This document shows, piece after piece, positions 1-60,565 of a DNA stretch of 64,000 nt. The DNA lies in NCBI GenBank assembly GCA_021794095.1, contig JAJYRN010000015.1:1-64000 (forward strand). The letters run 5' to 3'. The notes under the pieces are model-generated. The model made no database searches. It was not told where the DNA came from and worked only from the letters and a program-made list of their open reading frames with translations. The stretch's first letter is position 1. Each line of letters starts with the position of its first letter. Origin of the DNA: Acidobacteriota bacterium (lineage in GTDB: Bacteria; Acidobacteriota; Holophagae; Holophagales; Holophagaceae). The translations under genes were made by a program, and so were the position numbers.

Positions 1-230
1 GATCCCCTGCTCCATGCTTCCACCTCACCCAATGGGTGCTGTGAATATGTATGTAGGTTCCCTGAATACCGCGATTACATTAATTTTTCGTCTCGACCGA
101 ATAGGGCAGGATCAGATCTGTTCGCCTTTCGTGCGCCCGCAGGGCGTTTCGCGCCTTTCGCGGTTCCAGGATCCCGGCCTCGACGTCCCTGAACGGCTAA
201 GCTAGAGGGACACCTCCCTCCGGAAGCCCC
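1..230. other. Upstream region of the first kinase gene
   Basis: No convincing gene lies here. Bases 40-95 are clearly more AT-rich than the rest of the window, which would suit a promoter or the end of an unseen gene, but I find no clean -35/-10 pair. A short open frame (14-205) has no recognisable protein and no ribosome-binding site. A solitary copy of the CGCGAAA repeat family lies at 120-167. Confidence 0.5.
120..167. repeat. Solitary CGCGAAA-family repeat
   Basis: Bases 147-167 are identical over 21 nt to 57920-57940, the right-hand repeat of the GxxExxY cassette. Two TTTCGCG units spaced 9 nt apart are clear. The third unit further left (121-131) is degenerate. No partner copy in opposite orientation and no nuclease gene is next to it, so it is either a solo copy or the edge of an element that starts before the window. 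Confidence 0.7.
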
Positions 231-55820: not shown

Positions 55821-55924
55821 GCGGCCCTCCTGGAGATCTTTATCGGTAGGGGAGGCCGGAAACCCAAACCTGGTGTTCCCCGGGCGGGGCGGGCATGGGA
55901 AAATCATGGATTCGGGGGGATGGC

Positions 55925-57472
55925 ATGCCAACGGCATTGATCTCGGTGTACGACAAGACGGGTCTCATCGGGCTGGCAGAGGGGCTGCTCAGCCAGGGCT
56001 GGCGCCTGCTGGCCACGGGAGGCACCCTGCGGACCCTGAATGAAGCCGGCCTGAAGGCCGACGAGGTGGCCGTTTATACCGGCGCCCCGGAGTGCTTCGA
56101 CGGCCGGGTGAAGACCCTGCATCCCCGCATCCACGGCGGCCTCCTGTTCCGGCGCGATCTGGAAGCCCACACCGCCGATGCGGCCCGCCTGGGCATCGAA
56201 CCCATTGACCTGGTGGCCATCAACCTCTACCCCTTCGAGGCCACCATCGCCCGGGAGGGCGTGACGGCCGACGAGGCCATCGAGCAGATTGATATCGGCG
56301 GCCCCAGCATGATCCGCAGTGCTTCCAAGAACCACGCCTCGGTGACCGTGCTGACCGCTCCCGACCAGTACGGCCCCTTCCTCGAGAAGCTGAAGGCGGG
56401 CACCTGGGATCTGGAAGACCGGCGGCACTGCGCCCTGGAAGCCTTCCGCCGCACCGCCGCCTACGATGCCGCCATTTCCGGCTGGATGGAGCGGCAGCTG
56501 GCGCCCCGCGACGAGGGCACGGGCCTGCCCCACCACCTCTGCATCAACCTGTCCCAGAAGCAGGGCCTCCGCTACGGCGAGAACCCGCACCAGCCCGCCG
56601 CCTTCTATGTGGAGCCCGGCCGGGTGCCCTCCGGCATCGCAGCCTGCCACCAGCACCAGGGCAAGGAGCTGAGCTTCAACAACCTGCTGGATGCCGACGC
56701 CTGTGCCCACCTCGTCTGGCAGTTCCAGGCCCCCGCCTGCGTCATCGTCAAGCACAACAACCCCTGCGGCGTCGGCCAGGGGCCCCATGTGCTGGAGGCC
56801 TTCACCCGGGCCCAGGCGGGTGATCCGATCAGTTCCTTCGGCGGCATCGTCGGCTTCAACCGCCCCGTGGGCGTGGAGGTGGCCCGGGTCATGGCGCAGA
56901 ACTTCTGGGAAGTCATCCTCGCTCCGGCCTTCACCGCCGAGGCCCTGGAAGTCTTCGCCGCCAAGAAGCAGCTCCGCATCCTCCAGACGCCGGACCAGTG
57001 GCCCCAGAGCGCCGAAGGGCTGGACACCCGCTCCATCGGCGGCGGCTACCTCGTCCAGCGCACCGATGACGCCTTCGTACCCTTCGAGGACTGGGAGGTG
57101 AAGGCCAACGGCAGCGGTCCCCGCCCCCGTTCGGAGGATCTGGTGCTGGCCCAGAAGGTGGCCAAGGCGGTGAAATCCAACGCCATCGTTCTGGTGAAGG
57201 ACGGCGCCACCGTGGGCATCGGCGCGGGCCAGATGAGCCGGGTGGATTCCGTGGACATCGCCTGCCGGAAGGCCGGTGACAAGGCCCGGGGCGCGGCCCT
57301 GGGCAGTGATGCCTTCTTCCCGTTCCCGGACGGTGTGGAGCTGGCCGCCCGCCACGGCGTCACCGCCTTCGTCGAACCCGGCGGCAGCCTCCGCGACAAG
57401 GAAGTCATCGAGGCCGCCCAGAAGCTCGGCGTCTGGCTCTTCTTCACCGGCATGCGGCACTTCCGGCACTAG
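55925..57472 (+). CDS. purH: Bifunctional AICAR transformylase/IMP cyclohydrolase
   Basis: Last two steps of IMP synthesis. 515 aa. N-terminal IMP cyclohydrolase (methylglyoxal synthase fold) with LISVYDKTGLIGLA, LLATGGTLRTLNE and VKTLHPRIHGG; C-terminal transformylase with NLSQKQGLRYGENPHQPAAF, VIVKHNNPCGVG (catalytic Lys-His) and SNAIVLVKDG. Start chosen at MPTALISV, 10 codons after an earlier ATG. The stop codon abuts a CGCGAAA repeat that starts the next cassette. Confidence 0.97.
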   Translation: MPTALISVYDKTGLIGLAEGLLSQGWRLLATGGTLRTLNEAGLKADEVAVYTGAPECFDGRVKTLHPRIHGGLLFRRDLEAHTADAARLGIEPIDLVAINLYPFEATIAREGVTADEAIEQIDIGGPSMIRSASKNHASVTVLTAPDQYGPFLEKLKAGTWDLEDRRHCALEAFRRTAAYDAAISGWMERQLAPRDEGTGLPHHLCINLSQKQGLRYGENPHQPAAFYVEPGRVPSGIAACHQHQGKELSFNNLLDADACAHLVWQFQAPACVIVKHNNPCGVGQGPHVLEAFTRAQAGDPISSFGGIVGFNRPVGVEVARVMAQNFWEVILAPAFTAEALEVFAAKKQLRILQTPDQWPQSAEGLDTRSIGGGYLVQRTDDAFVPFEDWEVKANGSGPRPRSEDLVLAQKVAKAVKSNAIVLVKDGATVGIGAGQMSRVDSVDIACRKAGDKARGAALGSDAFFPFPDGVELAARHGVTAFVEPGGSLRDKEVIEAAQKLGVWLFFTGMRHFRH

Positions 57473-57505
57473 AAACCGCGAAACACGCGAAAGGACGCGA
57501 AAGGG
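57473..57505. repeat. Left CGCGAAA repeat of the GxxExxY cassette
   Basis: Three CGCGAAA units with 2- and 3-nt spacers, starting with AACCGCGAAA directly after the purH stop. Its complement lies at 57910-57938: the three units and their spacing are identical in both, 24 of 29 positions agreeing, and all mismatches fall in the spacers. Confidence 0.85.
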
Positions 57506-57507
57506 AG

Positions 57508-57900
57508 ATGACGCTCCAGGACTTGGTACTGCCTGACGAAAGCTACGCCCTGATGGGCGCGGCTTTCGAGGTCTACAAGGAATTGGGCCCCGGGTTCCTT
57601 GAAGCTGTCTATGAGGAAGCGCTCGCACGCGAACTGGCCCATCGCCAAATCCCCTTCCAGCGCCAGGTTCCACTGGTGATTCATTACAAGGGCCACCCCC
57701 TCGACAAGCACTACCTCTGCGACATCCTGGCCTATGGCCTGGTTATTCTTGAATTGAAAGCCATTCGCGGAATTACTGACATCGAGGTGGCTCAAACGCT
57801 GAACTACCTCAAAGCGTCCCGCCTTCCCCTAGCCCTGATCCTGAATTTTTCCGCACACGGCAAGCTCGAATGGAAGCGGCTCACCCTCACTCAAACCTGA
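57508..57900 (+). CDS. GxxExxY protein (PD-(D/E)xK nuclease fold)
   Basis: 130 aa. Signature G29-F-L-E32-A-V-Y35 gives the family its name. A PD-(D/E)xK-like core follows: D72 in CDILAYGLV, then E82-L-K84 in LELKAI, as in Holliday-type and restriction nucleases, so metal-dependent nuclease activity is plausible though unproven. The family (PF13366/TIGR04256) is very widespread and of unknown function. Here it is the only gene between two inverted CGCGAAA repeats, inserted between purH and alaS with no other interruption. AGGGAG lies 3 nt before the ATG. Confidence 0.9.
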   Translation: MTLQDLVLPDESYALMGAAFEVYKELGPGFLEAVYEEALARELAHRQIPFQRQVPLVIHYKGHPLDKHYLCDILAYGLVILELKAIRGITDIEVAQTLNYLKASRLPLALILNFSAHGKLEWKRLTLTQT

Positions 57901-57909
57901 GTTTCTAAA

Positions 57910-57938
57910 TTTCGCGATTTTTCGCGCCTTTCGCGGTT
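57910..57938. repeat. Right CGCGAAA repeat of the GxxExxY cassette
   Basis: Three TTTCGCG units, inverted relative to 57473-57505, starting 10 nt after the GxxExxY stop and ending 5 nt before the alaS ATG. Bases 57920-57940 equal 147-167 exactly. Because it ends almost on the alaS start, the ribosome-binding site of alaS must lie inside or be absent. Confidence 0.85.
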
Positions 57939-57943
57939 CCCCC

Positions 57944-60565
57944 ATGAAAACCTCTGAACTCCGCCAGCGATTCCTGCAGTACTTCGAGCGCCACGGGCAC
58001 CGCCGGGTGGCCTCCAGCGCGGTCATCGGGCCGGCGGATGATCCGACGGTGATGTGGACCAACGCCGGGATGGTGCAGTTCAAGGATCTCTTCCTGGGCA
58101 AGGAGAAGCGGGACTACAGCCGCGCCACCACCAGCCAGAAGTGCCTGCGGGCTGGGGGCAAGCACAACGATCTGGACCAGGTGGGCTTCACGGCCCGCCA
58201 CCATACCTTCTTTGAGATGCTCGGCAACTTCAGCTTCGGCGACTACTTCAAGGCCGACGCGATCCGCTTCGCCTGGGAGTTCGTCACGGGGCCCATGGCC
58301 GAGGGGAACCTGGGGCTGGATCCTTCGAAGCTCTGGATCACCGTCTTCGAGGGCGCGGACGGCGTACCCGCAGACACGGAGGCTGAGGATCTGTGGAAGG
58401 CCGCCGGCGTGCCGCCCGAGCGCATCCTGCGCTTCGGGAAGAAGGACAACTTCTGGCAGATGGGCGACACCGGCCCCTGCGGGCCCTGTTCGGAGATGCA
58501 CTACGACCGCGGCGCCCACATCCCGGGCGACGCCCTGCCCAACGGCGAGGGCGACCGGATCATGGAGATCTGGAACCTCGTCTTCATGCAGTACGAGCGG
58601 GACGGGAGCGGCATTCTCACGCCCCTGCCCCGGCCCAGCATTGACACGGGCATGGGCCTGGAACGCACCGCCAGCATCCTCCAGGGCGTGGACAGCAACT
58701 ACGAGATTGACCTCTTCCGCCCCATCTTCGACGCCATCTGGTCCGTGGCGAAGGTGCAGCCAGGCGAGCGCCACGAGCACACGAACCGCACCGCCTCCCA
58801 GGTCATCGCGGACCACATCCGCGCCGCCACGTTCATGAGCTTTGATGGCATCGTGCCGAGCAACGAAGGCCGGGGCTACGTGCTGCGCAAGATCATCCGC
58901 CGCGCCCTGCGCTTCGGCCGGAAGCTGGGCATCGAGGGCCTTTTCTTCGCCGACTTGGCTCCGGCGGTGTTCCAGGCCATGGGCGACCAGTACCCCGAGC
59001 TGCTCGGCGAACTGGGACGCATCCAGAAGGCGCTGCTCCGGGAGGAGCGGCAGTTCAGCCAGACCCTGTCCACCGGCCTGCGCACCCTCGAAGCGCTGGA
59101 TGTCTCGGGCGGGAAGCTGGCCGGTGCGGACATCTTCCGCCTCTACGACACCTACGGTTTCCCCGTGGACCTGGTGGAGGACTGGTGCCGCGAGCGGGGC
59201 ATCTCCGCCGACCTGGCCGGGTTCCAGGCTGAGCTGGGGGCCCAGCGCAGCCGCGCCCGGGCCGCCATGAAAGCCCACGACCTGCGCCTGAGCGGCGACC
59301 TGGCCATCCTCGCCGACCTGCCGCCGACCCGCTTCACGGGCTACGACCATCTGGAAGGGCAGGCCCACGTGGTGGCCCTCTTCGACGCGCATAGCCGGCG
59401 GGTCAAGCAGCTTTCGGGCGAGGGGTATGTCCTGCTGGACCGCACCCCCTTCTACGCCCAGTCCGGCGGCCAGGTGGGCGATCAGGGCCAGCTTCGCTTC
59501 GAGGGCGGGGTGGCCGAGGTGCGGGATTGCACGGCCCCGGCGCCCAAGCGGCACCTCCACAAGGTTGAGGTCCAGGGCGCGCTCCTGGAGAACATGGCCG
59601 TGTCGGCCCTGGTGTACGGCATCCGCCGGCGGCGCGTCCGGGCCCACCACACGGCCACCCACCTGCTCCATGCGGCCCTGCGCGAGGTGCTGGGCACCCA
59701 CGTGAAGCAGGCCGGCAGCGTGGTGGATGACACCCGCCTGCGCTTCGACTTCAGCCACTTCGCGCCCCTGGAGCCCGAGCAGATCGCCGAGGTGGAGCGT
59801 CTGGCCACCCGCGAAGCCCTGAAGTGCCTGCCCACCCGGGTGGATGAGATGGATATCGAGGAGGCGCTGACCTCCGGCGCCATGGCCCTGTTCGGCGAGA
59901 AGTACGGCGAGGTGGTCCGCGTGGTCCAGGTACCCGGCTTCTCCACGGAACTCTGCGGTGGCACCCACGTGCTGAACACCGGCGAGATCGGCGTGGTGAA
60001 GATCACCTCCGAAGGCGCGGTCAGTGCTGGTGTGCGTCGCATCGAGGCGGTGGCCGGCGACCTGGCCCTGGACCTGCTGCAGGCGGATGAGGCCCTGATC
60101 CACGGCCTTTCCCGGCAGGTCAACGCGGGCCGAGAGGCCTTGCCCGAGCTGTTCACGTCGAAGGACCACCGCATCGCGCAGCTGGAGCGGGAACTCAAGG
60201 AGGCCAAGCTCAAGGCCGCCAGCAGCGGGAGTTCCGCCGAACAGGTCGAGCAGGTCAAGGGGTTCACCCTGGTCACCGCCGCGGTCGAGGGCCTGGAAGG
60301 GAACGCGCTGCGCGAGCTGATGGACCAGGTCCGAACCCGCCATCCCCGCGCCATCATCGCCCTGACCTCCCAGGTGGCTGCGGACAAGGTGGCCGCCCTG
60401 GTTTCGGTGTCCTCCGATCTGCCCCAGGACGCGGGCGCCCTCTTCAAGGCCATGCTCCCAGCGCTCGGAGGCAGGGGGGGCGGCAAGAAGGATCTCGCCC
60501 AGGGCGGCGGTTCCCGCCCGGAGGGCATCCCCGCCGCCTTCGATGCCCTGAGGCAGTCCCTGTAG
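57944..60565 (+). CDS. alaS: Alanyl-tRNA synthetase
   Basis: 873 aa. Class II catalytic core (residues 1-240: RQRFLQYFERHGHRRVASS, TNAGMVQFKDLFLG, GDTGPCGPCSEMHYDRG), editing domain with HHTATHLLHAAL and CGGTHV zinc/editing site, and a C-terminal C-Ala domain. Normal length and complete. Its ATG follows the right cassette repeat within 6 nt and no standard ribosome-binding site is visible. Confidence 0.98.
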   Translation: MKTSELRQRFLQYFERHGHRRVASSAVIGPADDPTVMWTNAGMVQFKDLFLGKEKRDYSRATTSQKCLRAGGKHNDLDQVGFTARHHTFFEMLGNFSFGDYFKADAIRFAWEFVTGPMAEGNLGLDPSKLWITVFEGADGVPADTEAEDLWKAAGVPPERILRFGKKDNFWQMGDTGPCGPCSEMHYDRGAHIPGDALPNGEGDRIMEIWNLVFMQYERDGSGILTPLPRPSIDTGMGLERTASILQGVDSNYEIDLFRPIFDAIWSVAKVQPGERHEHTNRTASQVIADHIRAATFMSFDGIVPSNEGRGYVLRKIIRRALRFGRKLGIEGLFFADLAPAVFQAMGDQYPELLGELGRIQKALLREERQFSQTLSTGLRTLEALDVSGGKLAGADIFRLYDTYGFPVDLVEDWCRERGISADLAGFQAELGAQRSRARAAMKAHDLRLSGDLAILADLPPTRFTGYDHLEGQAHVVALFDAHSRRVKQLSGEGYVLLDRTPFYAQSGGQVGDQGQLRFEGGVAEVRDCTAPAPKRHLHKVEVQGALLENMAVSALVYGIRRRRVRAHHTATHLLHAALREVLGTHVKQAGSVVDDTRLRFDFSHFAPLEPEQIAEVERLATREALKCLPTRVDEMDIEEALTSGAMALFGEKYGEVVRVVQVPGFSTELCGGTHVLNTGEIGVVKITSEGAVSAGVRRIEAVAGDLALDLLQADEALIHGLSRQVNAGREALPELFTSKDHRIAQLERELKEAKLKAASSGSSAEQVEQVKGFTLVTAAVEGLEGNALRELMDQVRTRHPRAIIALTSQVAADKVAALVSVSSDLPQDAGALFKAMLPALGGRGGGKKDLAQGGGSRPEGIPAAFDALRQSL

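Follow-up and report, generated by a model that had tools for sequence, protein, structure and literature searches.

A single-copy Cas4/RecB-type GxxExxY nuclease gene and its matching inverted repeat arrays: a candidate REPIN/RAYT-like pair

The gene between purH and alaS in the window (the whole 64,000-nt stretch of DNA analysed here) encodes a GxxExxY protein and is enclosed by two inverted arms, each a row of 7-nt units. Comparison with 47 Geothrix genomes and with loci from other phyla links such arms to GxxExxY genes and shows gene-less palindromes of the same kind to be mobile. It is proposed, with a probability of about 0.6, that gene and arrays form a REPIN/RAYT-like pair, in which a single-copy Cas4/RecB-type nuclease would copy gene-less palindromes built from its cognate arrays. 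GxxExxY genes (TIGR04256, PF13366) are common among bacteria, and to our knowledge the function of the family is not known.

The purH stop codon occupies positions 57470-57472 and the alaS ATG lies at 57944. The 466-bp gap between the two genes holds one supported ORF (Table 1), the overlapping ORFs on the opposite strand being without support. The arms pair over 29 nt each (57474-57502 and 57910-57938, 83% complementary), with CGCGAAA units starting at 57477, 57486 and 57496 on the forward strand and at 57910, 57920 and 57929 on the reverse strand. Counting from the outer end, the units of both arms are separated by 2 and then 3 nt; every unit position matches and the mismatches are confined to the spacers. 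The preliminary description of a single gene enclosed by three-unit inverted arms of equal spacing, differing in the spacers alone, was confirmed by the sequence and by tool. The left arm reaches into the start region of the GxxExxY gene. The right arm ends 5 nt upstream of the alaS ATG, and a Shine-Dalgarno sequence is not evident there (57929-57946).

Table 1. Arms, GxxExxY gene and neighbouring genes in the window
Feature	Position	Strand	Sequence or support
Left arm	57473..57502	+	AAACCGCGAAA-CA-CGCGAAA-GGA-CGCGAAA; three 7-nt units
GxxExxY gene, 130 aa, predicted PD-(D/E)xK nuclease fold	57508..57900	+	PF13366/TIGR04256; AlphaFold; Cas4 SSO0001 fold match; conserved residues
Right arm, inverted	57910..57938	-	AACCGCGAAA-GG-CGCGAAA-AAT-CGCGAAA
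purH, left neighbour, longest ORF	55895..57472	+	conserved in congeners
alaS, right neighbour	57944..60565	+	present in 43/47 genomes
Single arm	127..167	-	GGAACCGCGAAA-GG-CGCGAAA-(CGCCCTGCGGGCG hairpin)-CACGAAA

A solo copy of the repeat had also been described at 147-167. The 21-nt copy is present, but it is not solo, since it forms the outer part of the single arm listed in Table 1, whose third unit (TTTCGTG, 127-133) is set apart by a 13-nt hairpin insert, CGCCCGCAGGGCG. This layout recurs in many gene-less copies. By eye, the 13-nt hairpin (CGCCCTTCGGGCG and variants) separates units 2 and 3 in one arm and never in both (gene-less copies L279, L280, L284, L289, L293, L294, L298 and L299). 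Weak arrays of the CACAGAG/CGCAGAA type are found in the window at 1564-1598 and 50992.

The association between arms and GxxExxY genes extends well beyond this locus. Pattern searches, from which all array counts per genome were taken, found the triple CGCGAAA unit with up to two mismatches 14 times in the window genome (2.99 Mb) and 127 times in the 47 Geothrix genomes; since a reversed-pattern control gave 0 in all 47, these matches are not due to chance. The window genome carries five GxxExxY genes, all with arms and with five different units. When an inverted-flank score of at least 18 was taken as an arm, arms were called at 79 of 93 GxxExxY loci tested in Geothrix (outward-displaced flanks 3.3%, mismatched flanks 8%) and at 52 of 75 loci in a cross-phylum scan (1.6% and 10%, respectively), in support of the specific linkage of arms and protein implied by the preliminary description. 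At some of the arm-negative loci, the whole palindrome lies on one side of the gene, either upstream or downstream.

A definable 7-nt unit conforming to the motif CRCNRAK, with a spacing of 8-10 nt, was obtained for 153 of 208 GxxExxY loci. The commonest units are CACGAAG (30), CGCGAAT (18) and CGCAGAT (10), and they differ between subfamilies (for example, CGCGAAA, CACCAAG, CACCGAT and CACGAAG). Of 83 loci with three units in each arm, 73 have the same spacing on the two sides. Mapped onto a tree of 152 proteins, the unit letters change far less often than after shuffling: 19 v 55 changes at position 4, 9 v 49 at position 5 and 12 v 54 at position 7; in the cross-phylum loci alone, position 7 changes 6 times v 23. 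The unit type follows the protein tree, which co-inheritance of linked DNA alone would bring about to some extent. Too few independent changes were available among independent protein-unit pairs to derive a residue-by-residue recognition code. Arm-to-arm identity reaches 95.1% in the units and 62.4% in the spacers, and in 144 of 146 arms a C adjoins the outermost unit on its outer side. What is kept in the arms therefore seems to be a recognised sequence and not simply the ability to pair as a hairpin.

The window protein belongs to the GxxExxY family by both models, with 132.7 bits against PF13366 (E=1e-38; curated cut-off 22) and 131.5 bits against TIGR04256 (E=1.8e-38; curated cut-off 35). 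It contains G29FLEAVY35, D72, E82xK84 and Q96xxxY100, the last of which is the QxxxY motif of RecB-type nucleases. Across 207 proteins, E32 and D72 are present in all, E82 and K84 in 206 and Q96 in 203, and Q96xxxY100 is conserved; the PD-(D/E)xK core proposed at the outset (D72, E82 and K84) is intact, its residues and those of the GxxExxY motif being invariant or nearly so. The AlphaFold model (pLDDT 94.1) finds its closest fold in Cas4 SSO0001, with Z 9.4; Foldseek gives this match a probability of 1.0, though at E 1.2e-3. The other PD-(D/E)xK folds from VIA-align, with Z <8, are read as fold-level likeness only. A PDB sequence search with the protein gave no match. By fold and motif, the window protein is a RecB/Cas4-like PD-(D/E)xK nuclease, its activity being predicted. 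Cas4 proper was ruled out, as its iron-sulphur cluster needs four cysteines and the window protein has one (C71). The fold list also includes XisH (fdxN excision controlling factor, 2okf; Z 5.9) and Hjc resolvases (Z 6.6), matches that may reflect a shared fold and perhaps nothing more. The dN/dS ratio of the gene is 0.05-0.18, although synonymous sites in the window pair are close to saturated. As judged from the sequences, the protein is kept by purifying selection with an invariant active site.

The arrays that lack a gene vary widely in number and position. Geothrix genomes hold from 0 to 18 CGCGAAA arrays, up to 43 of the CACCGAT type and up to 56 of the CACCAAG type. In Herpetosiphon llansteffanensis (the genome of locus L167), 458 two-unit CACGAAG-NN-CACGAAG arrays were counted v 2 for the control. 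A second orthologous site is empty (15-34 nt) in five genomes and occupied in their relatives by a palindrome of the CGCGAAW, CACCAAG or CGCAGAT type. Nested palindromes are seen there in G010, G011, G020, G002 and G032, and unit types replace one another at this single site. A CGCCAAG or CACCAAG palindrome lies in the loop of one of the CGCGAAW type at L302, L286, L305, L331 and L333. One gene-less family of about 240 bp has, by eye, a common interior at several sites. Gene-less arrays are mobile, as shown by their presence or absence at orthologous sites and by the clean empty alleles at the second site. No target-site duplication was found across 132 loci, where old elements could have lost it, and one raised duplication value probably comes from a GATC palindrome at the ends.

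The purH-alaS site itself was read in 30 genomes. A GxxExxY element is present in three (G000, which is the window genome, G021 and G006) and, by coordinates, in G027; several genomes have a gene-less CACCAAG palindrome and others unrelated spacers. The idea of a clean insertion between purH and alaS is not borne out, because relatives have unrelated spacers there, including the nearest one, G022, with no element and an unrelated spacer of 72 nt. The preliminary description had named, as evidence against its view, the same gene and repeats fixed at this site in all relatives, with CGCGAAA units everywhere and unlinked to GxxExxY genes. The occupancy just given does not conform to that pattern, and 25 of the 47 Geothrix genomes lack CGCGAAA arrays.

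The gene-bearing unit behaves differently from the gene-less palindromes. GxxExxY paralogues within a genome are at most 68% identical, which rules out recent copying of the gene-bearing unit. Plasmids seldom carry GxxExxY (8 of 72,556 records), and none of 58 candidate relatives in viral contigs was confirmed. Gene-bearing elements of one subfamily occupy different sites, with 63 of 231 close pairs lacking flank similarity. Since the paralogues are so divergent, plasmid copies so rare and viral copies unconfirmed, the gene-bearing unit is regarded as static and mostly vertically inherited, the spreading part being the gene-less palindromes. The view of the cassette as a minimal selfish unit is not supported, for copies with the gene fail to multiply within a genome, are seldom met on plasmids and are under purifying selection. 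It is right in part, in that gene-less palindromes spread. A defence or phage origin is likewise unsupported, as searches of PADLOC, PHROGs and phage DNA gave no match and no viral relative was confirmed.

For two of the three unit types tested, array numbers are higher in the presence of the cognate gene. CACCAAG arrays stand at 42.5 with the gene v 2 without it (P=1e-4), CACCGAT arrays at 14 v 1 (P=5e-4) and CGCGAAW arrays, the unit type of the window, at 2.5 v 0 (P=0.08), none of the six cross-pairings of gene and array type being significant; these tests ignore phylogeny and leave out about 15 genes of the genus. The matching is not one to one, because none of the GxxExxY genes read from four CGCGAAA-rich genomes (G002, G010, G032 and G043, with 11-18 arrays) is of the CGCGAAW type. 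Gene loss in such genomes is possible. A Y1/RAYT transposase (PF01797) was found in none of 42 of the 47 Geothrix genomes, the window genome included, nor was a Y1_Tnp gene found in the Herpetosiphon genome with 458 arrays, where GxxExxY is present. Y1_Tnp genes with equal scores occur six times in the G030 chromosome and five times in that of G032 (L341-L351), and these sets are probably recent IS200/IS605-type copies.

In the pair proposed here, one part would be the single-copy gene for a small Cas4/RecB-type PD-(D/E)xK nuclease, GxxExxY, and the other two facing arrays, each built from roughly three 7-nt units (CRCNRAK) at a spacing of 8-10 nt, with an invariant C just beyond the first. 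The nuclease would bind its cognate units and cut the palindrome at its terminal C or close by, acting on extruded DNA or on a single-stranded hairpin, for example in replication. The cut would start the copying of a gene-less palindrome into new intergenic sites, the new copies being joined by host repair without target duplication, and the gene copy would remain in place, inherited mostly vertically. The preliminary description took the arms to be the ends of a mobile cassette on which its nuclease acts: the polymorphic sites support the arms as ends of mobile elements, and we infer the action of the nuclease on them. That it moves the palindromes is likewise inferred.

Other explanations must be weighed against this one. 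Another enzyme could move the palindromes, and GxxExxY would be a passenger, or a guard of the host serving to trim or remove them. The array-rich genomes without a matching gene would suit such a role, as would the single, vertically kept gene-bearing copies, which would be expected of a domesticated guard. However, the obvious candidate mover, Y1/RAYT, is missing from most Geothrix genomes and from Herpetosiphon, and a guard predicts fewer arrays in the presence of the gene, whereas more are observed; this explanation is considered unlikely, if still worth keeping in mind. Somewhat less probable again is that the arrays are operator sites, through which the GxxExxY protein or another regulator controls its own gene and the neighbours of the palindromes, the fold serving as a binding module. 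Paired inverted arrays of three TCTCCGTS[Y] units in Geobacter metallireducens carry the annotation 'predicted global regulator binding sites' (PMC2700814), and the left arm of the window element ends in a unit directly next to the start region of the gene (57496-57507), which would allow autoregulation. Nevertheless, the nuclease active site is invariant, and the sites are polymorphic and nested, with types swapped at one site, a mobility that a regulator does not need.

The arms could also work at the RNA level, as hairpins for termination or processing between genes, with the protein unrelated or an RNA-directed partner. Gene-less copies are intergenic and fold well (z -3.8 to -11), but the pairing is not kept (spacers 62% v units 95%), there is no T tract after the arrays and no Rfam match, the sole terminator-like match is at chance level, and a terminator does not explain the unit differences between subfamilies, all of which makes this reading very improbable. 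Homing, in which the nuclease would cut the empty allele and double-strand-break repair would copy the cassette into it, fits a stand-alone nuclease gene with presence and absence at purH-alaS; it has hardly any likelihood left, given that empty sites carry neither the unit nor a common recognition sequence and that gene-bearing elements of a single subfamily sit at different sites.

If it is indeed the nuclease that moves the palindromes, mobile elements would have an enzyme whose class is not known to function on its own. A specific DNA partner gives the GxxExxY family a likely job, scattered 8-10-nt repeat arrays earlier taken as regulator sites would be explained, and natural nuclease/recognition-unit pairs with different specificities would be on offer. 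In Geothrix congeners, PF05635 genes (S23, four-helix-bundle; L079-L094) also lie between inverted arrays, here of contiguous 7-nt units (GCTATCA, AGTCTTC and AGTTGGC), and all 12 loci whose flanks are complete show a lag-7 period. Since two unrelated proteins have this architecture in common, 'array-ended' elements could form a general category that accounts for many puzzling 7-10-nt repeat arrays in bacteria. This idea, joined to that of a pan-bacterial class of minimal mobile systems, in which a lone PD-(D/E)xK nuclease would read arrays of its subfamily's own 7-nt unit and copy gene-less palindromes to other places in the chromosome, is put forward tentatively, at slightly less than even odds.

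Among described systems, the Cas4/RecB nucleases (SSO0001, AddB and MGME1) offer the closest fold and the same D...ExK...QxxxY set, but the window protein has 130 aa, one cysteine and no cas neighbours. MITEs with an autonomous IS partner are likewise short non-autonomous elements with inverted ends, and the common interior of one gene-less family recalls them; in contrast, the cassette has no DDE transposase, no target duplication was found and the arms are made of tandem units. Taken as its reverse complement, the TCTCCGTS[Y] sequence of G. metallireducens corresponds to the CACGGAGA-type unit present at several GxxExxY genes, and the part of PMC2700814 consulted ties no gene or mobility to those arrays. 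Heptamer inverted pairs have been described in Xanthomonas (PMC4692102), and no literature linking GxxExxY to inverted tandem-unit arrays was found among open-licence papers, preprints aside. In REPIN/RAYT, the enzyme gene is single-copy, vertically inherited and not seen on plasmids, and the repeats are commoner where the gene is present (PMC8049555, PMC3116915). The elements described here share with it the gene-less, intergenic inverted pairs with predicted hairpins, the single-copy gene and the greater number of repeats in its presence, an analogy of behaviour rather than membership. They differ in that the enzyme is a predicted PD-(D/E)xK nuclease instead of an HUH/Y1 transposase, that the arms consist of three 7-nt units in a row where REPIN/RAYT has an imperfect palindrome, and that several unit types stand side by side in one genome. 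Neither the enzyme class nor the ends match any described mobile system known to us or found, while the behaviour of the pair resembles that of REPIN/RAYT.
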